64,000 nucleotides of DNA from Streptomyces mirabilis (GTDB lineage Bacteria > Actinomycetota > Actinomycetes > Streptomycetales > Streptomycetaceae), in contig NZ_CP074102.1 in NCBI RefSeq assembly GCF_018310535.1, positions 4,712,001-4,776,000 of the forward strand, given 5' to 3'. Numbering within the stretch: the first letter of the stretch is position 1; every line of letters starts with the position of its first letter. Position numbers and translations under genes: made by a program. Shown here in pieces: positions 36,557-56,864 of this stretch. The notes under the pieces were generated by a model that worked only from the letters and a program-made list of their open reading frames with translations, had not been told where the DNA came from and searched no databases.

Positions 36557-36571
36557 CTGACGGACAGTCAG
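36557..36571. promoter_or_regulatory. Regulon operator 1: CTGAC-GGACA-GTCAG
   Basis: A perfect 5+5 dyad 30 bp upstream of the acyl-CoA synthetase start. It belongs to a set of eight 15-bp sites found only at catabolic promoters between 36.5 and 56.9 kb. Confidence 0.75.
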
Positions 36572-36646
36572 ATCGTGGGCAGAGCGTAGGGCTCGGCGCC
36601 TTGTCGGTCCAGGGGTGCGGGGCTAGCCTGCTGGGGAAGTGGAAAT

Positions 36647-36661
36647 CTGACGACCCATCAG
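36647..36661. promoter_or_regulatory. Regulon operator 2: CTGAC-GACCC-ATCAG
   Basis: One mismatch to CTGAC-N5-GTCAG; extended as ATCTGA-N7-TCAGAT. It lies 27 bp upstream of the amidohydrolase ATG, facing away from operator 1. Confidence 0.7.
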
Positions 36662-36687
36662 ATATGTACGCCAGGCGGAGGGGAACC

Positions 36688-37881
36688 ATGACCGAACTGC
36701 CCCGCATCATCAGCGTCGACGACCATGTGATCGAGCCCGCGCACCTCTTCGAGACCTGGCTGCCGAAGAAGTACCAGGACCGGGGACCCAAGCCCCTCAC
36801 GGCCGGAATCGGTGAACTCGCCTACGTCGGCGGCAAGTACCAGATCACCATGGACCCGGACGGCCCGCCCACCGACTGGTGGATCTACGAGGACCTCAAG
36901 TTCCCGTACAAGCGCAACATCGCCGCCGTCGGCTTCGACCGCGACGAGATGACCCTGGAGGGCATCACGCGCGCGGAGATGCGGCGCGGCTGCTGGGACC
37001 CCGTCGAGCGGCTCAAGGACATGGACCTCAACCACGTCGAGGGAAGCCTCTGTTTCCCGACCTTCCCCCGCTTCTGCGGGCAGACCTTCGCCGAGGCGCA
37101 CGACAAGGAAGTGGCCCTGGCCTGCGTGCGCGCGTACAACGACTGGATGGTCGAGGAGTGGTGCGGCGACAGCGGCGGCCGGCTGATCCCGCTGTGCCTC
37201 ATCCCGCTGTGGGACATCGAACTGGCGGTCGCGGAGATCCGGCGCAACGCCGCGCGCGGAGTGAAGGCGGTGACGTTCTCCGAGATCCCCACCCACCTCG
37301 GCCTGCCCTCCATCCACTCCGGCTACTGGGACCCGTTCCTCGCGGTCTGCCAGGAGACGGGGACGGTCGTGAACATGCACATCGGTTCCTCGTCGCAGAT
37401 GCCCGCCGCCTCCCCGGACGCGCCGCCCGCCGTGCAGGCCTCGCTGTCCTTCAACAACGCGATGGCCTCGATGATGGACTTCCTGTTCAGCGGGGTGCTG
37501 GTGAAGTTCCCGCGCCTCAAACTCGCCTATTCCGAGGGGCAGATGGGCTGGATCCCGTATGCCCTGGAGCGCGCAGACGACGTCTGGCAGGAGCACCGCG
37601 CCTGGGGTGGCGTCCGGGACCTCATCCCGGAGCCGCCCTCGACGTACTACTACCGGCAGATCTTCTGCTGCTTCTTCCGCGACAAGCACGGCGTCGCCTC
37701 GCTGGACGTCGTGGGACGGGACAACGCGACCTTCGAGACCGACTACCCGCACGTCGACTCGACCTTCCCGCACACCAAGGAGGTCGCCCTCGACCATGTG
37801 AAGGGCCTCGACGACGAGACGATCTACAAGCTGATGCGCGGCAACGCCATCCGCATGCTCGACCTGGACCTCGACAAGTAG
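36688..37881 (+). CDS. Amidohydrolase-family (amidohydrolase_2) metal-dependent hydrolase
   Basis: A 397-residue TIM-barrel hydrolase/decarboxylase-like protein. Metal-site features of the family are ISVDDHVIEPAHLFETWL at the N-terminus, GTVVNMHIGSSSQMP in the middle and NATFETDYPHVDSTFPHT near the end. Relatives act on ring-opened or carboxylated intermediates, including ACMSD-type decarboxylases and CoA-thioester-linked hydrolases. ATG 36688 has CGGAGGGG upstream. It begins an operon with two acyl-CoA dehydrogenase genes 7 and 9 bp apart and has a regulon operator 27 bp upstream. Confidence 0.9.
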   Translation: MTELPRIISVDDHVIEPAHLFETWLPKKYQDRGPKPLTAGIGELAYVGGKYQITMDPDGPPTDWWIYEDLKFPYKRNIAAVGFDRDEMTLEGITRAEMRRGCWDPVERLKDMDLNHVEGSLCFPTFPRFCGQTFAEAHDKEVALACVRAYNDWMVEEWCGDSGGRLIPLCLIPLWDIELAVAEIRRNAARGVKAVTFSEIPTHLGLPSIHSGYWDPFLAVCQETGTVVNMHIGSSSQMPAASPDAPPAVQASLSFNNAMASMMDFLFSGVLVKFPRLKLAYSEGQMGWIPYALERADDVWQEHRAWGGVRDLIPEPPSTYYYRQIFCCFFRDKHGVASLDVVGRDNATFETDYPHVDSTFPHTKEVALDHVKGLDDETIYKLMRGNAIRMLDLDLDK

Positions 37882-37888
37882 CGGGCCC

Positions 37889-39043
37889 ATGGACCTCACG
37901 TACACCCCCGAGGAGGAGGAGTTCCGCGCCCGGCTGCGGGAGTGGCTCGCCGGGGTGCTCCCGGCGCTGCCCCCGAAACCGTCCCCGGACGACTGGCCCG
38001 GCCGGCGGGCGTACGACCTCGGGTGGCAGCGGATGCTGTACGACGCCGGATACGCGGGGCTGCACTGGCCCGTCGACGCCGGGGGCCGGGGTGCCACGCC
38101 GACCCAGCACCTCATCTACCTGGAGGAGACGGAAAAGGCGGGCGCCCCCTACGTAGGGGCCAATTTCGTCGGACTGCTGCACGCCGGGCCGACCATCGCC
38201 TCCGAAGGGACCCCCGCACAGCGGGCGCGCTGGCTGCCGCCGGTGCTGCGAGGCGAGGAGGTCTGGTGCCAGGGGTTCAGCGAACCGGACGCCGGCTCGG
38301 ACCTCGCGGCGCTGCGCACACGCGCGTGGCGGGACGGCGACGACTACGTAGTGAGCGGGTCCAAGATCTGGACCTCCCACGCCGAGGTCGCCGACTGGTG
38401 CGAGCTGCTGGTCAGGACCGACCCGGCGGCCCCGAAGCACCGCGGGATCTCGTGGCTCGCGATGCCCATGGACGCGCCCGGGATCACCGTCCGGCCGCTG
38501 CGCACCCTCGCGGGCTCGACCGAGTTCGCGGAGGTCTTCCTCGACGAGGTGCGGGTGCCCGTCTCACACCGGGTCGGCGCCGAGAACGACGGCTGGCGCG
38601 TGACCATGGTGACCCTGTCGTACGAGCGCGGTACCGCCTTCGTGGGCGAGGTCGTGGCCTGCCGGCGGGTGCTGGGGGAGGTCGCGCGCGAGGCCCGCAA
38701 GAACGGCCGCTGGGACGATCCGGCACTCCGGCGGCGGCTGGGCGGGCTCAACGCCGAGTTCCGCGCGCTGTGGCGGCTCACGCAGTGGAACGTGAGCGAG
38801 GCACAGAGGAACGGGGGAGTGCCGGGAGTCGGCGGTTCGGTTTTCAAACTGAGGTACTCACACGCGCGGCAGGAGCTGTACGACGCCGCCGCCGAGGTTC
38901 TCGGGCCCGAGGCACTGGACCTGGGCAGAGAGTGGACCCTCGACCGGCTCAGCTCCCTGTCGTACACCATCGCGGCCGGCACCTCGCAGATCCAGCACAA
39001 CATCGTGGCCGAGCGGATCCTGGGCCTGCCGAAGGGACGGTGA
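37889..39043 (+). CDS. Acyl-CoA dehydrogenase (large subunit of a probable pair)
   Basis: A 384-residue FAD acyl-CoA dehydrogenase: LYDAGYAGLHWPVDAGGRGA, WCQGFSEPDAGSDLAALRTR, VVSGSKIWTSHAEVADWCEL, AEVFLDEVRVPVSHRVGAEN, and the C-terminal SLSYTIAAGTSQIQHNIVAE with RILGLPKGR. Two adjacent, unequal acyl-CoA dehydrogenase genes in actinobacteria often encode alpha2beta2 enzymes acting on steroid or other bulky CoA esters (FadE28-FadE29 type). The gene downstream is a shorter partner, so a heteromer is likely here. Confidence 0.92.
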   Translation: MDLTYTPEEEEFRARLREWLAGVLPALPPKPSPDDWPGRRAYDLGWQRMLYDAGYAGLHWPVDAGGRGATPTQHLIYLEETEKAGAPYVGANFVGLLHAGPTIASEGTPAQRARWLPPVLRGEEVWCQGFSEPDAGSDLAALRTRAWRDGDDYVVSGSKIWTSHAEVADWCELLVRTDPAAPKHRGISWLAMPMDAPGITVRPLRTLAGSTEFAEVFLDEVRVPVSHRVGAENDGWRVTMVTLSYERGTAFVGEVVACRRVLGEVAREARKNGRWDDPALRRRLGGLNAEFRALWRLTQWNVSEAQRNGGVPGVGGSVFKLRYSHARQELYDAAAEVLGPEALDLGREWTLDRLSSLSYTIAAGTSQIQHNIVAERILGLPKGR

Positions 39044-39052
39044 GTACTCCCC

Positions 39053-39982
39053 GTGGACTTCCAACTCACGGACGACCAGCGAGCCTTGAAGGCGGGCGTG
39101 CGCGAGCTGCTCGCGGCGCGGTTCGGCCGGGAACGGCTGCGCGCCGCCGTGGACGAGGGGCCGAGGCTCGACCGGGCCCTGTGGCGTGAGCTCGGTGAGG
39201 CGGGGTTCTTCGCGCTGCGCCTGCCCGAGGCGGACGGCGGCGTCGGGCTCGGCCTCCCGGAGGCGGTGCTCGTCTTCGAGGAGGCGGGGCGGGTCCTGCT
39301 GCCCGGCCCGCTGATCGCCACGCATCTCGCGGCGGGCGTGGTGGACGGGGCCGCCACCGGGGAGACCGTGGTGACGGCCGTGGACGGCGGCGGCCTGGTG
39401 GAGTGGCTGGCCGAGGCGGACGTCGTACGCGGGGACGCGACCGGCGCCGAGCCGCTGCGGCCGGTGGACCCACTGACGCCGCTGCACCGGGTACCCGTAT
39501 CCGGCGGGGCCGGTCTCACCGGCGTACGCCCCGTGGGTTCCACCGGCGCACTCCCCACGGCTCCCCTCACTTCGCTCTTCACGGCGGCCGAACAGCTCGG
39601 CACCGCCGCCCGCGCCTGCGAGACGGCCGTGCAACACGCCCGGGCCCGCGAGCAGTTCGGGCAGCCGATCGGGGCCTTCCAGGCGATCAAGCACCTGTGC
39701 GCGCAGATGCTGGTGCGGGTGGAACTGGCGCGCGCCGCGGTCTACGCCGCCGCCGTCACGGCCGACCCCGTGGACATCGCGGCGGCCCGGCTGCTCGCCG
39801 ACGAGGCCGCCGTGCGCGGCGCCCGCGACTGCCTCCAGGTGCACGGCGGCATGGGCTTCACCTGGGAGTCCGACGTCCATCTGTTTCTGAAGCGGGCTTG
39901 GACGCGAACCCAACGTACGGGCGGTGTTACGGAGAGTGAGGAACTGTTGGCGGCCGACCTGGTGTCCGCGGTGGGCCGATAG
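39053..39982 (+). CDS. Acyl-CoA dehydrogenase, short partner subunit
   Basis: A 309-residue protein, 60-70 residues shorter than a standard acyl-CoA dehydrogenase. The N-terminal helical domain (FQLTDDQRALKAGVRELLAA, EAGFFALRLPEADGGVG) and C-terminal helical domain (QHARAREQFGQPIGAFQAIK, ARDCLQVHGGMGFTWESDVH, LFLKRAW) are present, but the middle beta-domain is truncated and lacks the usual TEP-AGSD segment. That matches the non-catalytic or complementing subunit of heteromeric dehydrogenases. GTG 39053 is 9 bp after the large-subunit stop. Confidence 0.9.
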   Translation: MDFQLTDDQRALKAGVRELLAARFGRERLRAAVDEGPRLDRALWRELGEAGFFALRLPEADGGVGLGLPEAVLVFEEAGRVLLPGPLIATHLAAGVVDGAATGETVVTAVDGGGLVEWLAEADVVRGDATGAEPLRPVDPLTPLHRVPVSGGAGLTGVRPVGSTGALPTAPLTSLFTAAEQLGTAARACETAVQHARAREQFGQPIGAFQAIKHLCAQMLVRVELARAAVYAAAVTADPVDIAAARLLADEAAVRGARDCLQVHGGMGFTWESDVHLFLKRAWTRTQRTGGVTESEELLAADLVSAVGR

Positions 39983-40458
39983 GGCTCTGCACAGGCACGG
40001 TCCGGAAAGGGGCGCGATGAATGTCGCGGATCGTGGCATACCGGAATTACGGAGCGTTGATATCGGGTTGTGTCCTACGCGTGACTTGTCACGGCCTGGA
40101 GTCGGCGGCGGGCTCGGGTACCTTGTGTGGGATGCGAGTGGTTCCGAGATCGAGCGATCCCGGTGTTGCCCTTGAGGCCGCGCCGGATCCGGCGATGCTC
40201 GCCGCTCGCAAGGCAGTGCGGACCCCCGCGACTGCCTGTTCGACTCCCCGTGGCGAGCGTCGCACAGTATGCCGCACGCGTACTCCTTCGCGCTGGAATA
40301 TGCCCGAAGCGCTTGTTGGGGTGACTGTACGTCAACCATGCTGTCTCTCAAGGGAATCACGTTCCGTGATCCTGGTTCTGGTCATGCAGGTCATGGCCAC
40401 GATCGTGGCCCTCGTGAGGCGCGAGGCGATGTGTCCGCCGGTTCGGATGGTGTGAGCG
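39983..40458 (+). other. 476-bp intergenic region without a firm gene
   Basis: An open frame of about 108 codons from ATG 40132 to 40455 (MRVVPRSSDPGVALEAAPDP...) ends just before the next GTG. Its composition is unusual: Cys-, Thr- and Arg-rich, with lower third-position GC than the neighbours. I cannot relate it to a family and treat it as a long promoter/leader region of the ATP-binding gene. GC content falls visibly around 40040-40090 and 40310-40380. Confidence 0.3.
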
Positions 40459-40941
40459 GTGCAGGTGCTTCAAGTGCAGCTGGAGATCCGGCCCGACCCC
40501 GCGGAGGTGGGGCGAGCTCGGAGGTGGGCCCGTTCGCGGCTCGCCGGGTCCGGGATAGGGGTCGATGAGCCGCTCGCCGAGACGCTGATCCTGCTCGTCT
40601 CCGAACTCGTCACCAACGCCGTGGTGCACACCGGCTGTCCGGCCGTGCTGCGGCTGTCCCTGCCGGGCGTCCTCGGTGAGTCCATCGGGACCGTCCGCCT
40701 GGAGGTGGCCGACTCCAGCGCCCGCCCCCCGGTGCCCCGGCACGCCGAGGGCGACGAGACCAACGGCCGCGGCCTGGAGTTGGTCGACGGTCTGGCGGAC
40801 CGCTGGGGCTGGAATCCCGAGGGTGCCGGCAAGAGCATCTGGTGTGAGGTCGACCGCTGTACGCAGGGTGCCCGGGCGGGGGTCGCGTACGCGGCTTCCT
40901 CCTACGAGGGCTTCGCGTACGAGGCGTACGAGGCGGTCTAG
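40459..40941 (+). CDS. ATP-binding (HATPase_c, RsbW/SpoIIAB-like) regulatory protein
   Basis: A 160-residue GHKL-type ATP-binding protein of the Streptomyces anti-sigma/serine-kinase family. The N-box is LILLVSELVTNAVVHTGCPA (about residues 45-64); the G1 region is LRLEVADSSARPPVPR, lacking the fully canonical DxGxG; the G2-like segment is TNGRGLELVDGLADRWGWNP. A Tyr/Ala-rich tail (YEGFAYEAYEAV) ends it. Such proteins can phosphorylate STAS antagonists such as the one at 33925, but many are orphans. It is followed by a terminator-like hairpin and carries no regulon operator. Confidence 0.88.
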   Translation: MQVLQVQLEIRPDPAEVGRARRWARSRLAGSGIGVDEPLAETLILLVSELVTNAVVHTGCPAVLRLSLPGVLGESIGTVRLEVADSSARPPVPRHAEGDETNGRGLELVDGLADRWGWNPEGAGKSIWCEVDRCTQGARAGVAYAASSYEGFAYEAYEAV

Positions 40942-40956
40942 TCCGCGTCCGCACCC

Positions 40957-40981
40957 GCTCCCGTACCTCTGGTGCGGGAGC
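40957..40981 (+). terminator. Terminator-like hairpin after the ATP-binding gene
   Basis: GCTCCCG (40957-40963) pairs with CGGGAGC (40975-40981), extended inward by ACC/GGT. A second perfect hairpin CGTGCA-TTTG-TGCACG lies at 40988-41003. Confidence 0.65.
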
Positions 40982-41003
40982 ACGGTTCGTGCATTTGTGC
41001 ACG

Positions 41004-41368
41004 CGTTCCGTTTCCACGGCCCGGGTCGGGGCCGAGTGCGCCGGGATGTGCTTCCGTGCGCGCCGTCGCAAAGGGCGCGTAAGTGATAATTCCCCGAACG
41101 GGTGTTGACGTGGCGTGTCCGTTTGATCACGCTTGTGTTCAGCGATTCGCCGCGAGGGGACGGCGAGGGTTTCGGTGACGGGAGCCCTCGGTGAGTGCGG
41201 GTCGCGATTCGGCGTCGGCTCCTACAGGGCCAGAGGGAGCAGGGCGGGTACGCCGGAACCGACTGGCGGCGCGCGATGCCGTGCTCGGGGCGCGCAGTGG
41301 CGCGCCGCCAGCCGACCCTTTCCCCGGCCGCCGGCCGACCTTTCCCCGAAGGCTCCTTGGGGCTCATC
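41004..41368 (+). other. Intergenic region with a possible orphan 5' gene end
   Basis: TTGACG at 41103 may be a -35 element on the plus strand. A GTG at 41191 has a good ribosome site (GGGAG) and opens a frame (VSAGRDSASAPTGPEGAGRV RRNRLAARDAVLG) that runs antisense into the cyclase-family gene to 41589. The first 35 residues look gene-like, the rest does not, so this may be the start of a truncated gene. No family assignment is possible. Confidence 0.3.
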
Positions 41369-42295
41369 TCAGAGGATGGCCACCGGTGCCACGGGGGTGC
41401 CCGTGCCGCCGACGAAGGGTTCCGGCATCGCGGACAGCAGGAAGGCGTAGCGATTCTCTTGTCCACAGGCTGTGGACAACTCTTCGAGATTCCAGTTCTG
41501 GCCCTGCAGCATCCCCATCTCGACCAGGTCGAGCGCATGTACGGGCAGCCACAGGTCCTCGATTTCGGGAGGGAAGATCTCAAAAGTGAGAGTGTCGTTC
41601 GCGACGGCCGCGACATCGCGTGCGTGGAACCACTCCGGTGTGCGGATCGACAGCCCGGGCGACGGATACCCGTACGCGTGCTTGTCGCCGGCCAGGTAGA
41701 CCTGGATCTGCCCGGTCCGTACGAGCGCGATGTCCCCGGACCGCACCCGCGTGCCCGCCAACTCCTCCGCCGCGTCGAGGTCTTCGGGGGTCACGGCGTG
41801 ACCGCCGTCGAGGCGGTCGACGCCCCGCGCGCGCGGGATGTCGAGCAGGACCCCCCGCGAGACGAGGTGCCGGGGCTTGTCGATGCCGCTGAACTCGGCG
41901 CCGCCGTGCGGGGTGATCGTGCCGGCCGGGCGGCCGTTGTAGAGCTTCCCGGAGTGCGAGACATGGGTGAGCGCGTCCCAGTGGGTCGCCGCCTGGAGCC
42001 CCAGAGTCACGGCGTCGTCGCTGCACGCGACCGTTCCCGGGCCGAAGATCTCCTGGTTGATCTGCACCATGACGTGCAGCGGATTGATCCGCCCAGGGAT
42101 CATCCCGGTCTGCACCCCGTCCTGCTGGAGAGGGAGCGCGAGCGGAACACGCCGCCCCGTGCGGACGCAGGCGACGGCCTCTCGTACCACCTCGTCGGTG
42201 ATCAGGTTCAGGGTCCCGATCTCGTCGTCGGCGCCCCAACGCCCCCAGTTGTTCACGCGCTTGGCGATGTCGTGGAACTCGACCGGAAGTGACAT
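41369..42295 (-). CDS. Cyclase-family (kynurenine formamidase-like) hydrolase
   Basis: A 308-residue member of the cyclase/KynB-like metal hydrolase family. The metal motif is ATHWDALTHVSHSGKLYNGR (H-x-D-x-x-x-H), preceded by GTLNLITDEVVREAVACV and followed by LLDIPRARGVDRLDGGHAVT, with DLWLPVHALDLVEMGMLQGQ near the end. Relatives hydrolyse amide, lactone or ring substrates. ATG 42295 has GGAGGA 5 bp upstream. It is divergent from the SDR operon across two regulon operators (42326, 42358). Its 3' end contains a DnaA-box pair. Confidence 0.9.
   Translation of the reverse strand: MSLPVEFHDIAKRVNNWGRWGADDEIGTLNLITDEVVREAVACVRTGRRVPLALPLQQDGVQTGMIPGRINPLHVMVQINQEIFGPGTVACSDDAVTLGLQAATHWDALTHVSHSGKLYNGRPAGTITPHGGAEFSGIDKPRHLVSRGVLLDIPRARGVDRLDGGHAVTPEDLDAAEELAGTRVRSGDIALVRTGQIQVYLAGDKHAYGYPSPGLSIRTPEWFHARDVAAVANDTLTFEIFPPEIEDLWLPVHALDLVEMGMLQGQNWNLEELSTACGQENRYAFLLSAMPEPFVGGTGTPVAPVAIL
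41459..41479. other. Two inverted DnaA boxes inside a CDS
   Basis: TTGTCCACA (41459-41467) and TGTGGACAA (41471-41479) are separated by GGC. TTGTCCACA is the preferred Streptomyces DnaA box. They lie within the coding sequence of the cyclase-family gene (residues ELSTACGQ). Confidence 0.7.
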
Positions 42296-42325
42296 GAGTC
42301 CTCCGCGGGGCTTGTCTCCGGGTAT

Positions 42326-42340
42326 CTGACGGGTCGTAGA
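42326..42340. promoter_or_regulatory. Regulon operator 3 (degenerate): CTGAC-GGGTC-GTAGA
   Basis: The left half-site is perfect and the right has mismatches. It lies 31 bp upstream of the cyclase-family start, in the same divergent region as operator 4. Confidence 0.5.
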
Positions 42341-42357
42341 ATCCGAGGAGACCGAAT

Positions 42358-42372
42358 CTAACGGACCGTCAG
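42358..42372. promoter_or_regulatory. Regulon operator 4: CTAAC-GGACC-GTCAG
   Basis: One mismatch in the 5+5 dyad; the longer near-palindrome TCTAACGG-A-CCGTCAGA surrounds it. It lies 23 bp upstream of the SDR GTG. Confidence 0.7.
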
Positions 42373-42394
42373 AAACTGCGGGAAGGGGCCGGAC

Positions 42395-43309
42395 GTGGGG
42401 AACTTCTTGGCAGGAAAGGTCATCGCCGTGACGGGGGCGGGCCGCGGGATCGGCCGCGCCGTCGCGCTCGCCGCGGCGGCCGAGGGCGCACGGGTCGTCG
42501 TCAACGACTACGGGGTGTCCATCGAGGGCGCCGAGCCGACCAGTTCGATCGCCGACGCCGTGGTCAAGGAGATCGAGGCGGCGGGCGGGGAAGCGGTCGC
42601 GGTGGCCGACGACATCTCCACGATGGCCGGCGGCCAGCGGGTCGTCGACGCGGCGCTGACCTCGTACGGGCGCATCGACGGAGTGGTGTGCGTGGCCGGC
42701 ATCCTGCGTGAACGGATGCTCTTCAACATGTCCGAGGAGGAGTGGGACCCAGTCGTCGCCACCCACCTGAAGGGCACGTTCACGGTCTTCCGGGCGGCCT
42801 CGGCGGTCATGCGCAAACAGGGCGCGGGCACGCTGATCGGCTTCACCAGCGGCAACCACCAGGGCTCGGTCGCGCAGGCCAACTACAGCGCGGCGAAGGG
42901 CGGGATCATCTCGCTGGTCCGCAGCGCGGCACTGGGCCTGCACAAGTACGGGGTGACGGCGAACGCGGTGGCACCGGTCGCCCGTACCCGCATGTCGGCC
43001 AATGTCCCCATGGAGCTGAAGGAGATCGGCGAACCGGAGGACGTGGCCGCGCTGGTGGTCTACCTCCTCTCCGACCGTGCCCGCGAGGAACGCATCACCG
43101 GGCAGGTCTACACGATCGCCGGCCCGAAGATCGCGGTGTGGGCACAGCCGCGGGAGCTGCGCGCCGGATACGCGGACGGCGGCCCCTGGACTCCCGAGCG
43201 GATCGCGGACTTCCTGCCGGGGACCGTGGGCGTGGACCCCATGCCCCTGCTGGAACAGGTGGAGGCGATGGCGCGGGCGGCCGCGCAAAAGGCGCGGCCG
43301 AACGCGTGA
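42395..43309 (+). CDS. SDR-family oxidoreductase, probable 3-hydroxyacyl-CoA dehydrogenase
   Basis: A 304-residue short-chain dehydrogenase. Cofactor motif VTGAGRGIGRAVALAAAAEG; the insert VVVNDYGVSIEGAEPTSSIA after the second strand is the NDxG pattern of multifunctional beta-oxidation-type (MFE-2-like) SDRs; active site Ser in GFTSGNHQGSVAQ and YSAAK. GTG 42395 is preceded by GGAAGGGG. It is the first gene of an operon with an acyl-CoA dehydrogenase and an alcohol dehydrogenase, and has a regulon operator just upstream. It likely oxidises a 3-hydroxyacyl-CoA intermediate. Confidence 0.92.
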   Translation: MGNFLAGKVIAVTGAGRGIGRAVALAAAAEGARVVVNDYGVSIEGAEPTSSIADAVVKEIEAAGGEAVAVADDISTMAGGQRVVDAALTSYGRIDGVVCVAGILRERMLFNMSEEEWDPVVATHLKGTFTVFRAASAVMRKQGAGTLIGFTSGNHQGSVAQANYSAAKGGIISLVRSAALGLHKYGVTANAVAPVARTRMSANVPMELKEIGEPEDVAALVVYLLSDRAREERITGQVYTIAGPKIAVWAQPRELRAGYADGGPWTPERIADFLPGTVGVDPMPLLEQVEAMARAAAQKARPNA

Positions 43310-43387: not shown

Positions 43388-44533
43388 ATGGAGTTCGGAT
43401 TCGACGCCGAGGACGAGGCCTTCCGGCGCACGGCACGGGACTGGCTGACCGCCCACCCGGTCGGTGAGCCGGTCGTCCGCCAGGACTGGGAACGGGAACT
43501 GGGCCGGGGTGGCTGGATCGGCCTTGGCTGGGCGGAGGACGGATACGGCAACCGGCGGGCGAGCCTGACCCAACAGGTCGTCTGGGCCGAGGAGTACGCC
43601 CGTTCCAGGGCCCCGGCCCGCTCCGGCCATATCGGAGAGAAGCTCCTCGCCCCCACCCTCATCGCCCACGGGACCCCGGAACAGAAGGCACGCTTCCTGC
43701 CCCCGGTCGCCCGCGGCGAGGAACTCTGGTGCCAGGGATACAGCGAGCCGGGCGCGGGCTCGGACCTGGCGGGGATCCGTACGGCCGCGGCACGGGACGG
43801 CGACACGTACCGCGTCACCGGCCAGAAGATCTGGACCTCGCTCGCACACGAGGCGGACTGGTGCTTCGTCCTCGCCCGTACGGAACCGGGGTCGGCCCGC
43901 CACCACGGTCTGTCCTTCCTTCTCGTCCCGATGGACCAGCCGGGTCGCGTCGAGGTCCGCCCGATCCGCCAGCTCACCGGCACGAGCGAGTTCAACGAGG
44001 TCTTCTTCGACGGGGCGGTGGCCCGCGCCGAACACGTCGTCGGCGGTGCGGGCAACGGCTGGCAGGTGGCCATGAGTCTCCTCGGTTTCGAACGAGGGGT
44101 CTCGACGCTGGCCCAGCAGATCGGCTTCGCGGAGGAGTTGGGGCGGGTGATCGAGACGGCCGTCGCCACGGGCGCGGCGGCCGACCCGGTGATCCGGGAC
44201 CGACTCGTACGCCAGTGGGCGGAGCTGCGCACGATGCGCTGGAACGCGCTGCGGACGCTGGGCGGTTCGGGCGACGCGGGCGCGCCCAGCGTCGCCAAGC
44301 TGCTGTGGGGCCGCTGGCACCAGCGGCTCGGCGAACTGGCGGTACGGGTGCGGGGCGCGGAGGCCGCGACCGGTCCCGCGGACTGGTCGGCCTCGGCACC
44401 GTACGAACTCGACTCCTCCCAGCACCTGTTCCTGTTCAGCCGGGCCGACACCATCTACGGCGGCTCGGACGAGATCCAGCGCACGATCATCGCCGAGCGC
44501 GTGCTCGGCCTGCCGAGGGAACCCAAGGGCTGA
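43388..44533 (+). CDS. Acyl-CoA dehydrogenase
   Basis: A 381-residue full-length acyl-CoA dehydrogenase: GGWIGLGWAEDGYGNRRASL, WCQGYSEPGAGSDLAGIRTA, VTGQKIWTSLAHEADWCFVL, FNEVFFDGAVARAEHVVGGA, and the C-terminal FLFSRADTIYGGSDEIQRTI with IAERVLGLPREPKG. ATG 43388 has GAGGGGG upstream; the frame is open further upstream through the tandem repeats but is not coding-like there. It lies in the SDR operon and is the third or fourth dehydrogenase subunit of the regulon. Confidence 0.93.
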   Translation: MEFGFDAEDEAFRRTARDWLTAHPVGEPVVRQDWERELGRGGWIGLGWAEDGYGNRRASLTQQVVWAEEYARSRAPARSGHIGEKLLAPTLIAHGTPEQKARFLPPVARGEELWCQGYSEPGAGSDLAGIRTAAARDGDTYRVTGQKIWTSLAHEADWCFVLARTEPGSARHHGLSFLLVPMDQPGRVEVRPIRQLTGTSEFNEVFFDGAVARAEHVVGGAGNGWQVAMSLLGFERGVSTLAQQIGFAEELGRVIETAVATGAAADPVIRDRLVRQWAELRTMRWNALRTLGGSGDAGAPSVAKLLWGRWHQRLGELAVRVRGAEAATGPADWSASAPYELDSSQHLFLFSRADTIYGGSDEIQRTIIAERVLGLPREPKG

Positions 44534-44543: not shown

Positions 44544-45593
44544 ATGCGAGGCGTGATCTTCGACGGCAAGCGGACGCAGGTCGTGGACGACCTGGAGATA
44601 CGGGATCCGGGGCCCGGCGAGGTGCAGGTCGCGATCTCCGCGGCCGGCCTCTGCCACAGTGACCTGTCGGTGGTGGACGGGACGATCCCCTTCCCCGTCC
44701 CCGTGGTCCTGGGACATGAGGGCGCGGGGGTCGTCGAGGCGGTGGGCGCGGGCGTCGGCCATGTCCGGCCCGGCGACCATGTCGCGCTCTCCACGCTCGC
44801 CAACTGCGGGGCGTGCGCGGAGTGCGACCGGGGGCGGCCGACGATGTGCCGCAAGGCGATCGGGATGCCGCGGCAGCCGTTCGCGCGGGGCGGGCGGCCG
44901 CTGTACCAGTTCGCGTCCAACTCCGCGTTCGCGGAACGGACGGTGGTGAAGGCCGTCCAAGTCGTCCGCATCCCCAAGGACATCCCCCTCGCGTCCGCCG
45001 CGCTGATCGGATGCGGAGTCCTGACGGGAGTGGGCGCGGTCCTCAACCGCGCGAGGGTGGACCGGGGGGACACCGTCCTCGTCATCGGCACCGGCGGCAT
45101 CGGACTCAACGTTCTCCAGGGCGCGCGGATCGCGGGCGCACTGAAGATCGTCGCCGTCGACGCCAATCCGGCGAAGGAGGCCGTGGCCCGGCGCTTCGGC
45201 GCCACGCACTTCCTGACGTCGACGGAGGCCGTGAAGGACATCCTTCCCACGGGTGCCGACCACGCCTTCGAGTGCGTCGGCCGCGTCGAACTCATCCGCC
45301 AGGCCATCGACCTGCTGGACCGCCACGGCCAGGCGGTCCTCCTCGGCGTACCTCCGGCCACGGCCGAGGCGTCCTTCCTCGTCTCGTCCATGTACCTGGA
45401 CAAGTCCATCCTGGGCTGCCGATACGGGTCCTCCCGCCCCCAGCGTGACATCGCCCTGTACGCCGACCTGTACCGAGAAGGCCGCCTCCTCCTGGACGAA
45501 CTGGTCACCCAGACCTACCCGGTGGAGGACTTCGACAAGGCGGCGCAGGATGCGGAGGGTGGGAGGGTGGCGCGGGCGGTGCTGACGTTCTAG
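44544..45593 (+). CDS. Zinc-dependent alcohol dehydrogenase (MDR family)
   Basis: A 349-residue medium-chain dehydrogenase. Catalytic zinc ligands: C37 (GLCHSD), H58/E59 (VLGHEGAG) and a Cys in ALIGCGVLTGVGAV. Structural zinc lobe: C88, C91, C94 and C102 (NCGACAECDRGRPTMC). NAD fold: VLVIGTGGIGLNVLQGARIA. It resembles class-III-like actinobacterial alcohol/aldehyde dehydrogenases. It is 10 bp after the acyl-CoA dehydrogenase and ends the operon; REP-like repeats follow. Confidence 0.93.
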   Translation: MRGVIFDGKRTQVVDDLEIRDPGPGEVQVAISAAGLCHSDLSVVDGTIPFPVPVVLGHEGAGVVEAVGAGVGHVRPGDHVALSTLANCGACAECDRGRPTMCRKAIGMPRQPFARGGRPLYQFASNSAFAERTVVKAVQVVRIPKDIPLASAALIGCGVLTGVGAVLNRARVDRGDTVLVIGTGGIGLNVLQGARIAGALKIVAVDANPAKEAVARRFGATHFLTSTEAVKDILPTGADHAFECVGRVELIRQAIDLLDRHGQAVLLGVPPATAEASFLVSSMYLDKSILGCRYGSSRPQRDIALYADLYREGRLLLDELVTQTYPVEDFDKAAQDAEGGRVARAVLTF

Positions 45594-49689: not shown

Positions 49690-50307
49690 CTAGAGGAACC
49701 GCCCTTTGTGGAACAGCAGCGGCGCGGCGTCGTCACCGGCGCTCGCGCCGAGCGCGTCCACCCGTCCCACCACGATCAGATGGTCCCCGCCGGTGTGCAC
49801 CGCGTGGATCGTGCAGTCGACCCAGGCCGCGGCGCCCGCGAGACGCGGCGAACCGGAAACGGGCGCCGCGTCGTACACGACCCCGGCGAACTTGTCCGCC
49901 CCGCTCACCGCGAACCCACGGCACAACTCACCCTGGTGCGCCCCCAGTACGTTCACACAGAACACGCCCGCGCGGGCGATCCGCGGCCAGGTCGCCGACG
50001 TGCGCCCCACCATGAAGCAGACCAGGGGAGGGTCGAGCGAGAGCGACGCGAACGACTGACAGGCGAACCCGGCCGGGCCTCCGTCACCTGCCTCGCCCTC
50101 GACGCCCGGCGCGGTGATGACGGTGACACCCGTCGCGAAGTTCCCCAACACCCGCCGAAACGCGGCCTGATCGACCGGCGCCCGCTCATCGTCCCCCACC
50201 GCGCGCAACTCCGGCCGAGGCAGCGCCTCGACGCGCCCCGCGACGGTGGAAGCCCCGGCCGACCTGAGGTAACGGACGGCGGCTGCCGCCATCCCTGCGT
50301 GTCCCAT
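49690..50307 (-). CDS. Flavin reductase family protein (FMN reductase of a two-component system)
   Basis: A 205-residue flavin-reductase-like protein: FRRVLGNFATGVTVITAPGV, GFACQSFASLSLDPPLVCFM, GVFCVNVLGAHQGELCRGFA and GGDHLIVVGRVDALGASAGD. It would supply reduced FMN to a monooxygenase, such as a partner elsewhere in this regulon. ATG 50307 has GGTGG before it; ATG 50319 is an alternative without a ribosome site. A perfect regulon operator lies 18 bp upstream of 50307. Confidence 0.9.
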   Translation of the reverse strand: MGHAGMAAAAVRYLRSAGASTVAGRVEALPRPELRAVGDDERAPVDQAAFRRVLGNFATGVTVITAPGVEGEAGDGGPAGFACQSFASLSLDPPLVCFMVGRTSATWPRIARAGVFCVNVLGAHQGELCRGFAVSGADKFAGVVYDAAPVSGSPRLAGAAAWVDCTIHAVHTGGDHLIVVGRVDALGASAGDDAAPLLFHKGRFL

Positions 50308-50324: not shown

Positions 50325-50339
50325 CTGACGATGTGTCAG
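50325..50339. promoter_or_regulatory. Regulon operator 5: CTGAC-GATGT-GTCAG
   Basis: A perfect 5+5 dyad, 18 bp upstream of the flavin reductase ATG. Confidence 0.75.
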
Positions 50340-50411
50340 ATAGGAAGGGGTGGGAGCCGGTACGGAGCCCGGCGGGAACTCCTGGCCCAACCTGCGCGTA
50401 TCTTCGCGACC

Positions 50412-50543: not shown

Positions 50544-50544
50544 C

Positions 50545-51378
50545 TCAGCGGCCCCGGTAGTGCGGGGTTCTGCGTTCTACGAAGCTTGTCACGCCCTCGG
50601 TCGCGTCCGTCGTGGTCATGTTGATCTCCTGGGCGGCGGCTTCGGCGGCGAAGGCGGTGCTGCGGTCGGTGTCGAGGGAGGCGTTGACCAGCTGTTTGGT
50701 GAGGGCGAGGGCGCGGGTCGGGCCGGTGGCCAGGCGCTCGGCCCAGTCGCGGGCGGTCTTCTCCAGATCGTCCGGCGGTACGACTCTGTTGACGAGCCCG
50801 AGCCGCGCCGCGTCCGCCGCCGTCAGCGCGTCGCCGAAGAACATCAGTTCCTTGGCGCGCTGGGGTCCGACGAGACGGGGCAGCAGATACGCGCCGCCGC
50901 CGTCGGGGACCAGGCCGCGGCGCACGAACACCTCGATGAACTTGGCGGAATCGGCGGCGAGTACGAGGTCGCAGGCGAGGGCGAGGTGGGCGCCGAGGCC
51001 GGCCGCGGTGCCGTTGACCGCCGCGATCACGGGTTTCTCGCAGTCGAGGACCGCGCCGATCAGGCGCTGAGCGCCGAGCCGGATCGTGCGGGCCACGTCA
51101 CCGGCCACCCGCTCCCCGGCCGGCGGCCCCCCACGCAGGTCCGCGCCCGCGCAGAAACCACGTCCGGTCGCCGTGATCACGACGGCCCGTACGTCCGGGT
51201 CGGAGGAGGCGTGGGAGAGGTGCTGGATGAGGCGTTCGCGCTGGTCAGGGGTGATGGCGTTGAGGGTTTCGGGGCGGTTGAGGGTGATCCACGAGACGTG
51301 ATTGTCAGTGGCGTGCAGTACCAATGAGTCGACGGGATCGGCAGATTTCTCGGCAGATTTCTCGGGGGAGGATGTCAT
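50545..51378 (-). CDS. Enoyl-CoA hydratase/isomerase
   Basis: A 277-residue crotonase-fold enzyme: VSWITLNRPETLNAITPDQR, GRGFCAGADLRGGPP (first oxyanion), KPVIAAVNGTAAGLGAHLAL and FIEVFVRRGLVPDGGGAYLL with the second acidic residue shifted (Asp in PDGGG). It would hydrate or isomerise an unsaturated CoA ester. It is downstream of, and same strand as, the CoA ligase gene (73-bp gap), so probably under operators 6 and 7. N-terminal residues EKSAEKSADPVD are low complexity. Confidence 0.92.
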   Translation of the reverse strand: MTSSPEKSAEKSADPVDSLVLHATDNHVSWITLNRPETLNAITPDQRERLIQHLSHASSDPDVRAVVITATGRGFCAGADLRGGPPAGERVAGDVARTIRLGAQRLIGAVLDCEKPVIAAVNGTAAGLGAHLALACDLVLAADSAKFIEVFVRRGLVPDGGGAYLLPRLVGPQRAKELMFFGDALTAADAARLGLVNRVVPPDDLEKTARDWAERLATGPTRALALTKQLVNASLDTDRSTAFAAEAAAQEINMTTTDATEGVTSFVERRTPHYRGR

Positions 51379-51451
51379 GGGGGTGCTCCGGTTCTTACGG
51401 GGGGCGGTGCGGCGGGGGCGGGCGATGGCGCGGGGGCTGGGGCGCTGGGGG

Positions 51452-53677
51452 TCAGCGGCAGACGACCAGCGCGTCCAAGGCCACCGCTCCCTGGCCCCTG
51501 GGCAGCACCATCAGCGGGTTGATGTCGAGCTCGGCGATGTCGTCCCCGAGTTCCAGAGCCATCCGCTGTACGCGCATGACGACCTCGACCAGCGCGTCCA
51601 CATCCACAGGCGGCCCCCCGCGCACGCCCTCCAGAAGGGCCCGCCCGCGCAGCTCGCCGAGCATGCCGCGCGCCTGGTCCTCGCCGAACGGCGGCACGCG
51701 GACGGCCGCGTCCCGCAGCACCTCGACGAGCACACCACCCAGCCCGACGGTCACGGTCGGCCCGAAGAGCTGGTCGTGCGTGACGCCCACGACCATTTCC
51801 ACGCCCCGCTCGACCATCTGGCACACCAGCACGCCGTCGAGCGAGATCCCCTCGTAGCGCGCGATGTCGGTGAGCTCGCGGTAGGCGTCCCTGACCTGGC
51901 TGGCGGAGGTCAGTCCGATCTTCACCAGGCCCAGTTCGGTCTTGTGGGCGATCTGGGCGCCGGACGCCTTCATGACCACGGGGTAGCCGACGAGACTCGC
52001 CGCGCGCACGGCCGCCGCCGCGCTGGTCACCAACTGCTCGCGCGGCACCCGGATCCCGTAGGCGCGCAGCAGCTGCTTCGCCGCGTGCTCGCTCAGTTGC
52101 TGTCCCGGCCGCATCAGCGCCTGCGTCTTGCGGAAGGACGGCGAGGGGGTGCGGGGAGCCTCGTCGAAGGGGGAGCGGTAGGCGGCGACGAACCGGTGAT
52201 GGTCCAGGTAGGCGCGCACGGCCGTGATGCAGTTGGCGAAGGTCCGGAAGGTGGCGACCTTCGACGAGCCGAGCAGCGTCTCGCGGTACGCGGCCTCGGT
52301 GCCGACCGGCGAGCCCCACACCACGCACACCAGCTTGTCCGTCTGTTCCGCCGCGTCCACCAGGTCCTGCGCGAGCTTGTCGCTCATCGGAGGAAAGGGC
52401 CCGGTGATCGGACAGATCAGTACGCCGACCTCGGGGTCGGCGAGGATCGCGTCGATGATCTTCCGCCCGCGCCAGTCGCCGACCGGATGCCCGCCGTTGT
52501 CGACGGGATTGGTCACGCTCAGGTACTCGGGTATCCACTGGTGCAGCTCGGCCTGCTTGACGGCGGAGAGACCCGGCAGCGGCAGCCCCGCCGCCGTCGC
52601 CAGGTCGGCGAAGTGCGCCCCCGTGCCGCCCGAGATCGAATAGACCACGACACCCTCGGCCCGTGGGGCGCGGGCGCGGGCCAACAGGGCGGCGGTGTCC
52701 TGGAGTTCGTCGAGCCCGTCGACGCGGATCACGCCGTACTGCCGCATCGCCGCGTCCACCACCGTGTCGGCGCCGGTCAGCTTGCCGGTGTGTGAGGCGG
52801 CGGTGCGGGCGCCGGTCTCGGTGCGGCCGACCTTGACGGCGACGACGGGAACTCCACGGCGGGCGGCGCGGTCGGCGGCGAGCAGAAAGGAGCGGCCGTC
52901 CTTGAGCCCCTCGACGTAGCAGGCGATCGCGCCGATCTCCGACTGCTCGGAGAAGTAGGAGATGAAGTCGGCGGTCTCGAGGTCGGCCTCGTTGCCGGTG
53001 GGCGCCCAGTGGGAGAGCCGTACGCCCAGCTCCTGCATCGCGAACACCGGCCGGCCCTGGTGTCCGGACTGGGTGATGAGGGCGATCGCGGGACCGTCGA
53101 GATCGTCGCGGAACTTCTCGAAGGCGTTGAGGTTGGTGTTGGGCCCCAGGAGCCGGAGGCCGGAGCGGCGTACGGCGGCGGCGAGGTGGGCCTGTGCGGC
53201 GGCGCCCTCGGCCCCGGTCTCGGCGAACCCGGAGGCGAAGGCGACGGCGAACTTCACCTTGGCCTCGGCCAGTTCCCCGATCACGGGGAGCGGATCACCG
53301 ACGAGGAGCACGGCCAGATCGACCTGCTCGGGCAGGCCGGCGAGGGAAGGGGAGCAGGGGATGCCGAAGACGGACTGACGGGTGGGGTGCACGGGGTGCA
53401 GTCGGGCTCCGACCCGCTCGGCCCAGGCGATCAGCTGCCGGGTGATGCCGGTGTTCGGCCGGCCCTCGGCGTCCGAGGCGCCGACGACGGCCACGGACTC
53501 GGGACGGAAGAAGCGGTCCAGATCGGGTACGTCGGCGTACAGCGGACGGCCGCTGACGTCCAGGTCGTCGACGTCGGCCGGGCGGCCGTGCACGACGGGT
53601 GAGGGCTGCTCGCCGCAGGCGATGACGCGGGCCCGGCGGGAGTCGGTGGTGAGGGTGCCGTGGGTTGATCCAAGCAT
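51452..53677 (-). CDS. ADP-forming acetate/acyl-CoA ligase (CoA-binding + ATP-grasp)
   Basis: A 741-residue NDP-forming acyl-CoA synthetase. Order: CoA-binding Rossmann domain (about residues 50-170: FFRPESVAVVGASDAEGRPN), succinyl-CoA-ligase-like flavodoxin domain (IALITQSGHQGRPVFAMQEL to VVKVG), the phosphohistidine segment ARTAASHTGKLTGADTVVDA with the catalytic His, and a C-terminal ATP-grasp domain (GYPVVMKASGAQIAHKTELG, PTVTVGLGGVLVEVLRDAAV). It interconverts acyl-CoA plus ADP/Pi with acid plus ATP, or activates an acid. Two perfect operators lie 34-72 bp upstream of ATG 53677. Confidence 0.92.
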   Translation of the reverse strand: MLGSTHGTLTTDSRRARVIACGEQPSPVVHGRPADVDDLDVSGRPLYADVPDLDRFFRPESVAVVGASDAEGRPNTGITRQLIAWAERVGARLHPVHPTRQSVFGIPCSPSLAGLPEQVDLAVLLVGDPLPVIGELAEAKVKFAVAFASGFAETGAEGAAAQAHLAAAVRRSGLRLLGPNTNLNAFEKFRDDLDGPAIALITQSGHQGRPVFAMQELGVRLSHWAPTGNEADLETADFISYFSEQSEIGAIACYVEGLKDGRSFLLAADRAARRGVPVVAVKVGRTETGARTAASHTGKLTGADTVVDAAMRQYGVIRVDGLDELQDTAALLARARAPRAEGVVVYSISGGTGAHFADLATAAGLPLPGLSAVKQAELHQWIPEYLSVTNPVDNGGHPVGDWRGRKIIDAILADPEVGVLICPITGPFPPMSDKLAQDLVDAAEQTDKLVCVVWGSPVGTEAAYRETLLGSSKVATFRTFANCITAVRAYLDHHRFVAAYRSPFDEAPRTPSPSFRKTQALMRPGQQLSEHAAKQLLRAYGIRVPREQLVTSAAAAVRAASLVGYPVVMKASGAQIAHKTELGLVKIGLTSASQVRDAYRELTDIARYEGISLDGVLVCQMVERGVEMVVGVTHDQLFGPTVTVGLGGVLVEVLRDAAVRVPPFGEDQARGMLGELRGRALLEGVRGGPPVDVDALVEVVMRVQRMALELGDDIAELDINPLMVLPRGQGAVALDALVVCR

Positions 53678-53710
53678 CGGTCCGCCCGCTCCTGTGTGAC
53701 AGCCAATTAA

Positions 53711-53725
53711 CTGACGCACTGTCAG
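53711..53725. promoter_or_regulatory. Regulon operator 6: CTGAC-GCACT-GTCAG
   Basis: A perfect dyad upstream of the ADP-forming CoA ligase; centres of operators 6 and 7 are 24 bp apart, close to two or more helical turns. Confidence 0.8.
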
Positions 53726-53734
53726 ATTACTTAA

Positions 53735-53749
53735 CTGACGCCGCGTCAG
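53735..53749. promoter_or_regulatory. Regulon operator 7: CTGAC-GCCGC-GTCAG
   Basis: A perfect dyad, tandem with operator 6. Both sit in an AT-richer stretch (AATTAACTGACG, ACTTAACTGACG) that shares the extension TTAACTGACG. Confidence 0.8.
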
Positions 53750-53944
53750 GAACCGTCGTGCAAGCAAAAGGCTGTCCGGCGGGGATCTGGTTCGTACCCG
53801 CCGCATGCGGGGCCGGAACCCGTGGGAGCGGTGCACAACCTTCAACTCCCTTTGATCGTCTATGACATGGCCCTGTCGGCTTACGCCGGCCAAGCCACCG
53901 CTTCTCTCCTTCTCCTCACCTTTCTTCTCACCCTGGGGGATGTC

Positions 53945-55288
53945 ATGAGACCTGTCTCCTTCGGCCGCGCGCTGCGGCTCGGAGCCTGTACGACGCTCGC
54001 GGCCGGACTCGTCACCGTGGGGCTCACCGCCGCCCCCGCGTTGGCCGGCACCGAGTCCGACCAGCTGTGGGTCGACGCACCCTCCGAGCAGACTCTGCCG
54101 CTCGGCACGGACGGCGGCGCGCCGCAGAGCCGGACGGTCGACGTGGGGATCTACCACGACAACGACCACTTCACGGTGACCGACGGCAAGGTGACCGTCG
54201 ATGCCTCCGGGCTGGCCGGGGTCGGCGAGGTGACCTGGCCGGACAACTGCGCACCGAGCGGTGCGACCGCGGTGTGCAGCGTGCCGGACGTGCCCGTGAT
54301 CGGGTCCGGCTACAGCCGGCAGATCCACCTCGGGATCCGCGCGGCCGACGGTGCGCAGACCGGGGCGCAGGGCAGGATCACTTACACGGCGACGGCGACC
54401 GGCGGCCCCGACGGCACGCTCACCGCGCCCGAGGACAGCTTCGAGACCGACTTCACGGTCGCCTCGGGTCCCGACCTCTCCCTCGCCCCCATGGCCGACG
54501 TCGAGCACGCGCAGCCGGGCGGCACCGAGACGATCCCCTTCGCGCTGACCAACAAGGGCAACGAGAGCGCGCACGGCGTCAAGGTGAAGATGACGGCCTC
54601 ATACGGGCTGGACTTCCTGAACAAGTACGACGCCTGCACCTACACGCGGTCGGGCGGTGACGAGTACGCGCCGATGACGGACGCGACCTGCACGTTCGAC
54701 CAGGTGCTGGCCCCCGGCGACTCCTTCGAACTGCCCGCGCCACTGGAGCTGGCGATCGCGCGGCACGCGCTGAACGACCGGTTGGACATCAGTGTCGACC
54801 CGGCCGACGGCGCGACCGACCTGGCGAGCCGCGACAACTACGCGGCGCTGCAGATCGGCACGGACAACACCGCGGACTTCTCGGTGACCGGCGCCGCGGT
54901 CACCGGTACGGCGGGCCAGACGGTGACCGCCCCGCTCACCTTCAAGAACAACGGTCCGGCCTGGTTCGCGAACCTCGGCTCCGGCGACCCGGCCGCCAAG
55001 GTCAGGCTGATCGTCCCGACCGGTACGACGGTCACCGGCGTCCCCGCGGACTGCGTCCCGCACACCCTCACAGGCGGGTACTACGGGCAGCGGACGGGCG
55101 CCCCGCGTTACGACTGCGCTCTCCCGTACTGGGTGTCCGAGAGCACCGAGCGCACCTACGCCTTCCAGCTGCGGATCGACGCGGCGGTGCCCGGCACGAC
55201 CGGTGAGGTCAGTATCCACCCCGAGTTCGGCGACTTCGTCTTCGACCCGGACACCACGAACAACACCGCGGTGCTCGCTGTCAACTGA
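53945..55288 (+). CDS. Secreted protein with CARDB/DUF11-like beta-sandwich repeats
   Basis: A 447-residue exported protein. The signal peptide runs from MRPVSFGRALRLG through CTTLAAGLVTVGLTAAPALA, with cleavage after ALA near residue 34. The mature part is beta-rich, with modules resembling CARDB/DUF11 domains (GGTETIPFALTNKGNESAHG, GQTVTAPLTFKNNGPAWFAN) and disulphide-candidate Cys pairs. No sortase motif or membrane anchor is visible. ATG 53945 has CTGGGGGAT upstream. It carries no regulon operator of its own and may be unrelated to the catabolic genes. Confidence 0.85.
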   Translation: MRPVSFGRALRLGACTTLAAGLVTVGLTAAPALAGTESDQLWVDAPSEQTLPLGTDGGAPQSRTVDVGIYHDNDHFTVTDGKVTVDASGLAGVGEVTWPDNCAPSGATAVCSVPDVPVIGSGYSRQIHLGIRAADGAQTGAQGRITYTATATGGPDGTLTAPEDSFETDFTVASGPDLSLAPMADVEHAQPGGTETIPFALTNKGNESAHGVKVKMTASYGLDFLNKYDACTYTRSGGDEYAPMTDATCTFDQVLAPGDSFELPAPLELAIARHALNDRLDISVDPADGATDLASRDNYAALQIGTDNTADFSVTGAAVTGTAGQTVTAPLTFKNNGPAWFANLGSGDPAAKVRLIVPTGTTVTGVPADCVPHTLTGGYYGQRTGAPRYDCALPYWVSESTERTYAFQLRIDAAVPGTTGEVSIHPEFGDFVFDPDTTNNTAVLAVN

Positions 55289-55331
55289 CGATGGTTCAGC
55301 AGCAGTGAACAACGCTCGGTAATGCGGTGAC

Positions 55332-56633
55332 TCAGTGCGCGGCGCGGGTGTCTCCCGTGTCGCGCGCCCCCGTTTTCGCCCCGGTTTTCGTCGCCGCCTT
55401 CTCCTGCGCCTTGGCCGCCTTCTCCCCCGCCTTGGCCGCTGCCTTCTCCGCCTTCTCCGCGGTCCTCGCGACCGCCTTCGCGATCTTCTCCGCGTCGAGG
55501 GCGAGTTCGCGGAACATGCCGCTGATGGGGTTGGTGAAGCCGGTGAAGTAGAGGCCGGGTGCCTTCTTCGGGCTGCGGGCGCCGTGCACGACCGGGCGGC
55601 CCCGCCCGTCGAGGACGTCGAGGTGGCCGACGATGCCCTCCAGGGCGCGTACATACCCCGTCGCGGCGATCACGACGTCCGGGCCGATCCGCTTTCCGTC
55701 GGCGAGGACGACCTTGCCCTCCTCAAAACCCTCCACCGCGGCCACGACCTCGACCCGTCCCTTGCGGACGGCGTTGATGAGGCCGACGTCCTGGACGGGG
55801 ATGGAGCCTTCGTTGACGCGGGAGTAGAGGCCGGTGTCGGGGCGGGGCAGCCCATGCGCCGACAGGTCCGGCACGCTGACCTTGGCCATCGGTCCGGCGA
55901 GCGCGTCGACGAGACGCACCGGCAGCCGTCGTACGACGATCCCGGTGAACTGGGCGGCCCAGCCGGCCGTGGAGCGGCGCACGATGTGCGGCGCGGTGCG
56001 CACGGCGAGCCGTACCCGGGAGGCGCCGCCCTCGACCAGGTCCACGGCGATCTCGGCGCCCGTGTTCCCGATGCCGACGACGAGGACGTCCCGGCCGGCG
56101 TAGGGGGCGGGGTTGCGGTAGTCGCCGGCGTGCAGGAGTTCTCCGGTGTACGTGTCGCGGCCGGGCCAGTCGGGGAGGCGCGGGGTGTGGTTGTGGCCGG
56201 TGGCGACGACCACGGCGCTGCCGGTCAGCTCACGGCCGCCGGTGGCGTGCAGCAGCCAGCCGTCTCCGCCCGGGGCGGGCTCGACGCGCGAGACCTCGAC
56301 GCCCGTGACGATCTCCAGCTGGTGGTGATCGGCGTACTTCTCCAGGTAGCGCACCACGTTGTCGCGGGAGACCCACCGCCCGAAGTTGCGCGGCATCGCG
56401 AGGCCGGGCAGGCCGGACAGCCGCCGGGTCGTGTGCAGGTGCAGCCGGTCGTAGTGGCGCCGCCAGGATGCTCCGACCTGGTCGGACTTCTCCAGTACGA
56501 CGGCCCGTACGCCCTGGGCGCGCAGCGCGTACGCCGTCGCGAGCCCCCCGGGGCCGCCGCCTATCACGTACACGGGGCGGTCTTCGTGCGACGGCACCGG
56601 GCGGGATGTGGAGGAAGCAGTCGAGTCGGCCAT
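55332..56633 (-). CDS. Flavin-containing monooxygenase-like NAD(P)/FAD oxidoreductase
   Basis: A 433-residue class-B-type flavoprotein. FAD motif VYVIGGGPGGLATAYALRAQ (about residues 21-40); FMO-like YTGELLHAGDYRNPAPY; NADPH motif VLVVGIGNTGAEIAVDL; and VIAATGYVRALEGIVG. The last 40 residues are an Ala/Lys repeat (AEKAEKAAAKAGEKAAKAQE) resembling histone-like tails. It may perform N- or S-oxidation or Baeyer-Villiger-like chemistry. ATG 56633 lacks a clear ribosome site; a GTG nine codons upstream is possible. A regulon operator (56850) lies 217 bp upstream, nearer the divergent DoxX operon. Confidence 0.9.
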   Translation of the reverse strand: MADSTASSTSRPVPSHEDRPVYVIGGGPGGLATAYALRAQGVRAVVLEKSDQVGASWRRHYDRLHLHTTRRLSGLPGLAMPRNFGRWVSRDNVVRYLEKYADHHQLEIVTGVEVSRVEPAPGGDGWLLHATGGRELTGSAVVVATGHNHTPRLPDWPGRDTYTGELLHAGDYRNPAPYAGRDVLVVGIGNTGAEIAVDLVEGGASRVRLAVRTAPHIVRRSTAGWAAQFTGIVVRRLPVRLVDALAGPMAKVSVPDLSAHGLPRPDTGLYSRVNEGSIPVQDVGLINAVRKGRVEVVAAVEGFEEGKVVLADGKRIGPDVVIAATGYVRALEGIVGHLDVLDGRGRPVVHGARSPKKAPGLYFTGFTNPISGMFRELALDAEKIAKAVARTAEKAEKAAAKAGEKAAKAQEKAATKTGAKTGARDTGDTRAAH

Positions 56634-56849
56634 GAGCGCGAGCGTAATCACGTCGTCACTTGATAGGTCTCGGTCAAGCCCGGAATCGGTTGCGAACTGA
56701 TCACGGCTGTAGGAGGAGTGGGTGGGACCGGTGGCGTAGGTCACTTGGTTGTGTTCGAAGGATGGTGAGGAGTGGCGAGGGGCGGTGAGGAGTGAACGGG
56801 AAGGGAGGGTGGCGTACGCCTCTTGCGCGGGCGCCCTCCGTGCGCTGAA

Positions 56850-56864
56850 CTGACGTACCGTCAG
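56850..56864. promoter_or_regulatory. Regulon operator 8: CTGAC-GTACC-GTCAG
   Basis: A perfect dyad 25 bp upstream of the DoxX ATG. The rest of 56634-56888 shows no gene. Confidence 0.8.

Follow-up and report, generated by a model that had tools for sequence, protein, structure and literature searches.

In the KstR and KstR2 cholesterol regulons of mycobacteria, a TetR repressor acts on dyad operators that stand before many dispersed operons of coenzyme A (CoA) catabolism, and it also regulates its own gene. A system of this kind is predicted here around the dyad CTGAC-N5-GTCAG in a Streptomyces genome, where the window (the whole stretch analyzed, 64,000 bp) comprises bases 4712001 to 4776000 of a 9.1-Mb contig. 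The dyads mark operons of CoA-dependent catabolism, and an autoregulated, EthR-like TetR protein encoded at 69956 to 70603 (window coordinates) very probably binds them and represses the regulon until a pathway intermediate binds to it. The operator sequence of KstR and KstR2 appears to differ from this dyad. The sites are a real, conserved, and TetR-linked set that is best read as a regulon, known in kind and apparently new as an instance; in the literature searched by titles and the first parts of abstracts, neither the dyad nor the regulon was described and no paper naming PF19352, the family of the TetR gene, was found. Among the rows given in a passage of PMC3511530 from an operator table for seven other TetR regulators, this dyad does not occur.

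Five perfect dyads are found in the window, at positions 36557, 50325, 53711, 53735, and 56850. With up to two mismatches the window is not enriched (30 matches compared to 41 expected by shuffling), and perfect or one-mismatch dyads were therefore used in all tests. The 144 kb around the window contain 11 perfect dyads, while 59 permuted half-sites averaged 0.39 and reached at most 5, and among the spacings of 0 to 12 tried there, a spacing of 5 alone yields matches. For 14 out of the 114 genes called in the same stretch, a perfect dyad lies at most 350 bp upstream, whereas the permuted half-sites gave 0.08 such genes on average and never more than 1. A genome-wide motif scan, as called for by the original prediction made from the window's sequence, identified 41 perfect dyads versus 3 reversed-palindrome controls. 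Eleven of the 41 lie within one 72-kb stretch (contig positions 4748557 to 4820355) that reaches 44 kb to the right of the window. Each of these 11 stands upstream of a gene in intergenic DNA, with 8 in divergent, 3 in tandem, and none in genic or convergent positions.

Conservation was assessed in five other Streptomyces over 80 kb each around the TetR gene, with a site defined as a dyad of at most one mismatch within 350 bp upstream. Much of the gene order is preserved among them. A site precedes 80 out of 85 orthologues of marked genes, which are not independent because neighboring divergent genes share sites, while only 7 out of 134 orthologues of unmarked genes are preceded by one. The half-sites are constant between genomes and the inner bases vary, with a fuller consensus of approximately AtCTGACGGNCCGTCAGaT over 98 intergenic sites of at most one mismatch in six genomes.

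The TetR gene (PF19352) is located on the minus strand (L016:5956-6603), 6 kb beyond the right edge of the window and about 13 kb right of the final perfect dyad within it, which places the gene centrally in the extended set. Both the TetR N-terminal helix-turn-helix and a TetR-type C-terminal domain are present in the protein. An orthologue occurs in 101 of 101 sampled Streptomyces. Of 41 Streptomyces loci, 40 have a one-mismatch dyad at the start of the TetR gene itself, and among 17 loci from other groups, 12 have a site close to the start. The recognition helix is invariant among the compared loci, and the number of dyads tracks the presence of the orthologue across genomes. The original prediction had found no TetR gene inside the set, which is correct for the part in the window, and had proposed an unlinked repressor recognizable by a dyad in its own promoter. 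A candidate gene of this kind sits within the extended set, and an unlinked location is not supported. The accompanying proposal of a single regulon with one repressor is backed by the promoter positions, the conservation in five Streptomyces, and the distant sites before the same kinds of enzymes.

According to the proposed mechanism, the dyad would be the operator of this TetR protein, which as a dimer would sit on single or paired dyads beside the promoters of the catabolic operons and also over the start of its own gene. Occupation of its EthR-like pocket by an intermediate of the pathway would release the repressor from the DNA; this ligand is probably a hydrophobic acid or its CoA thioester. 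EthR of Mycobacterium tuberculosis is the closest solved fold to the TetR model among the 50 matches listed, at approximately 19% identity in the structural alignment, while full-length sequence similarity did not identify the protein as an EthR orthologue (E value of 4.5e-6, with residues 15 to 88 alone covered). KstR and KstR2 do not occur among those 50 matches, an absence that carries no weight for or against them. EthR is linked to EthA, and an FMO-type monooxygenase is likewise found within the marked set. A candidate regulator and operator are at hand for a Streptomyces catabolic gene set, so that its substrate can be sought directly by way of the inducer.

Several observations weigh against the regulon under this TetR protein. 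Among the remaining 30 genomic dyads, 17 are intergenic and 13 genic by the gene calls, and four of the 17 (L006, L009, L011, and L028) are more than 300 bp from any called start, so that chance may account for a considerable share of the distant sites. One of the 41 Streptomyces loci (L074, genome G217) has no site at TetR, and 5 of the 17 loci of other groups have none within 100 bp. Conservation across the whole region upstream of TetR in Streptomyces is 0.93, compared to 0.96 for the non-coding half of the dyad, and the conservation of the dyad there is therefore not specific at the genus level. Three genomes with the orthologue (G111, G121, and G130) have 5 to 7 dyads, while G244 has 15 without it, and the dyads of Sporichthyaceae lie mostly away from promoters. 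Two AraC-type regulators, a LysR, and a BTAD regulator are also encoded in the region. These regulators, together with the low dyad numbers in some genomes with the orthologue, would suit an arrangement in which another regulator uses the dyads as operators and the linked TetR is a bystander with a merely similar site. This is unlikely, since in several families the dyad stands at the start of the TetR gene itself and the dyad number follows the presence of that gene.

The genes at the distant sites were annotated, leaving out L006, L008, L009, L011, L012, and L020. The clearest of these dyads stand before an acyl-CoA dehydrogenase (ACAD; L014) and between an AMP-ligase and an operon of enoyl-CoA hydratase (ECH), DUF35, and thiolase-like genes (L034). 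Further clear cases precede LLM oxidoreductases (L007 and L024), a thiolase (L024), a MaoC hydratase (L025), and a ferredoxin reductase (L026). At L028 the dyad has a thiolase at a distance of 475 bp, the genes behind L002 and L010 encode proteins without a Pfam match, and the dyad of L029 lies between isochorismatase-family and PNPOx-family genes.

The original prediction listed eight sites in the window, of which seven stand, namely the five perfect dyads and the one-mismatch dyads at 36647 and 42358. The eighth, at 42326 to 42340, is a left half-site alone and is not taken as an operator, as 3 of the 5 bases in its right half deviate from GTCAG; it is absent from the window matches with up to two mismatches. 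Additional one-mismatch sites occur at 1608, 55285, and 63104, and those at 1608 and 63104 adjoin genes without an orthologue in the compared stretches. The one-mismatch dyad at 55285 to 55299 coincides with the 3' end of a DUF11 gene, off any promoter.

Gene products in the window were assigned by Pfam unless another basis is given, and the amidohydrolase and the first ACAD additionally by matches to solved chains. The perfect dyad at 36557 to 36571 is the candidate operator of a divergent pair, an AMP-binding acyl-CoA synthetase (PF00501; 35022 to 36527, minus strand) and an amidohydrolase (Amidohydro_2; 36688 to 37881, plus strand), and occurs before 5 of 5 and 3 of 3 of their orthologues, respectively. 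The one-mismatch dyad at 36647 to 36661 is a second site in the same intergenic region, and paired sites are likewise found in G013, G040, G093, and G096. Two plus-strand genes follow the amidohydrolase, encoding an ACAD (37889 to 39043) and a second ACAD-like protein without a middle-domain match (39053 to 39982). The one-mismatch dyad at 42358 to 42372 lies between a cyclase-family hydrolase (PF04199; 41369 to 42295, minus strand) and a divergent plus-strand operon of a short-chain dehydrogenase (SDR; 42395 to 43309), an ACAD (43388 to 44533), and a zinc alcohol dehydrogenase (44544 to 45593), with sites before 5 of 5 and 4 of 5 orthologues, respectively.

Upstream of a flavin reductase (PF01613; 49690 to 50292, minus strand), the perfect dyad at 50325 to 50339 is conserved before 4 of 5 orthologues. 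This site is 32 bp away from its gene when the ATG at 50292 is taken as the start, in line with the relative G040; the gene caller placed the start at 50199. The perfect dyad at 53711 to 53725 stands upstream of a putative ADP-forming acyl-CoA ligase (51452 to 53677, minus strand), for which NCBIfam ligase models matched below their cut-offs, and occurs before 5 of 5 orthologues, with another perfect dyad 24 bp away (53735 to 53749). An ECH is encoded at 50545 to 51324 on the same strand. The perfect dyad at 56850 to 56864 is located between an FMO-like flavin monooxygenase (55332 to 56597, minus strand; profile matches) at a distance of 252 bp and, 24 bp away, the plus-strand genes for a 150-amino-acid protein (56889 to 57341) and a DUF35/ChsH2-like OB-fold protein (57412 to 57900), with sites before 4 of 5 and 3 of 3 orthologues, respectively. 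The 150-amino-acid protein had been labeled DoxX, a label that finds no Pfam match at an E value of 0.001, and the "six transcription units" first reported are seven by the names given there.

The marked set is larger than originally described and spans window coordinates 35022 to about 109242. Beyond the window's right end it gains one thiolase and one ACAD; an operon of Ltp2-like thiolase, DUF35, and ECH with an AMP-ligase in divergent orientation; a group of amidohydrolase, LLM, and SDR genes; another of LLM, Amidohydro_3, and aldehyde dehydrogenase genes; and an SDR whose divergent neighbor encodes a protein that has no Pfam match. The thiolase-like protein adjoining DUF35 and hydratase genes resembles the Ltp2-ChsH2(DUF35) side-chain aldolase arrangement, and its best solved match by sequence is 6ok1, a "Lipid-transfer protein" (1.5e-100). 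Among solved chains, the window's amidohydrolase is closest to DitZ (1.9e-56) and then to PtmU3 (2.1e-37), both of diterpenoid metabolism, and the first ACAD is closest to Tcur3483 and 4x28, which like 6ok1 belong to steroid side chains. TcLtp2 and a C3 side chain are mentioned together in the first part of an abstract.

A steroid degradation regulon like those of KstR and KstR2 would accommodate the Ltp2-like thiolase beside DUF35 and the ACAD relatives, but it is quite improbable. Unlike in those systems, the enzyme mix includes two Amidohydro_2 proteins and LLM oxidoreductases, and the steroid ring oxygenase domain KshA_C (PF19298) has no match in the genome, in a weak test, as the control genomes themselves yielded a single match that fell below the cut-off. 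According to a passage of PMC4810484, steroid pathways are lacking in 55 of 57 Streptomyces genomes, yet the TetR orthologue is present in every Streptomyces sampled. The initial guess at the substrate keeps some support from the solved relatives where it named terpenoids or side chains, and a steroid-ring pathway is disfavored. The same relatives and the missing KshA_C match tentatively favor, with low confidence, an alicyclic or terpenoid-type acid as the substrate of the TetR regulon.

The pattern most worth following is found in Sporichthyaceae, where all five sampled genomes (f13) carry the TetR orthologue and contain 296 (G112), 248 (G134), 232 (G151), 253 (G166), and 473 (G181) perfect dyads, compared to 2 to 7 for the reversed control. 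The spacing in G112 is strictly 5, with 27 dyads in 400 kb versus 0 to 6 for each other spacing of 0 to 15, and the inner positions favor G6 and C10 as in Streptomyces. The first 3.48 of 5.5 Mb of G112 hold 187 sites in Poisson-like scatter (variance/mean of 1.06 per 250 kb). Among 42 sites in 740 kb of Sporichthya, 14 are convergent and 17 genic, classes that make up 2.3-2.4 and 85% of the sequence, respectively, while 9 are tandem and 2 divergent. Small samples are consistent with this, as 3 of 8 sites in G181 and 2 of 5 in G134 are convergent. No catabolic theme was found in the six genes scanned directly downstream of Sporichthya sites, out of 12 listed. An RNA hairpin or terminator, for which the dyad could form the stem and which would agree with the many Sporichthya dyads at gene ends and the use of the dyad's TGA as the stop codon in 15 of 42 sites, is hardly credible and was set aside, since the sequence and spacing are strict while the reversed palindrome of equal stem is rare, none of the 11 Streptomyces cluster dyads is convergent, and the lack of covariation at inner positions 6 and 10 (98 complementary pairs compared to 102.9 expected over the 187 G112 sites) favors protein-DNA recognition.

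Binding of the Sporichthyaceae dyads by the orthologous TetR would be the simplest link between the two. Possibly, although doubtfully, this lineage changed its job from a catabolic repressor to a chromosome-wide DNA-binding protein, with its operator spread to 232-473 places and favoring the spaces between convergent genes, while Streptomyces still has the local catabolic regulon. A role in nucleoid organization, division control, or as a transcription roadblock is a matter of speculation. SlmA and RefZ are likewise of TetR fold with many chromosome-placed sites, according to a passage of PMC6657595, whereas the Streptomyces cluster sites are promoter-linked, and the TetR of the window's genome scored 29 bits with the SlmA equivalog model against a curated cut-off of 120. 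A single repressor lineage that has a local regulon in some genomes and sites across the chromosome in others offers a natural comparison, from which the origin of proteins like SlmA or RefZ could become apparent.

Most of the named near-identical relatives of the TetR protein are from Streptomyces. Two close relatives (P0007 and P0066) are publicly named "division inhibitor protein" and "Nucleoid occlusion factor SlmA". A paralogue with 39% identity is encoded on the second contig of the window's genome (G000:C2:228424-229020). In two Actinomadura loci (L111:3975-6960 and L112:3975-6958), five dyads each, two perfect and three with one mismatch, lie within the 3 kb that separate the TetR start from an Amidohydro_2 gene.
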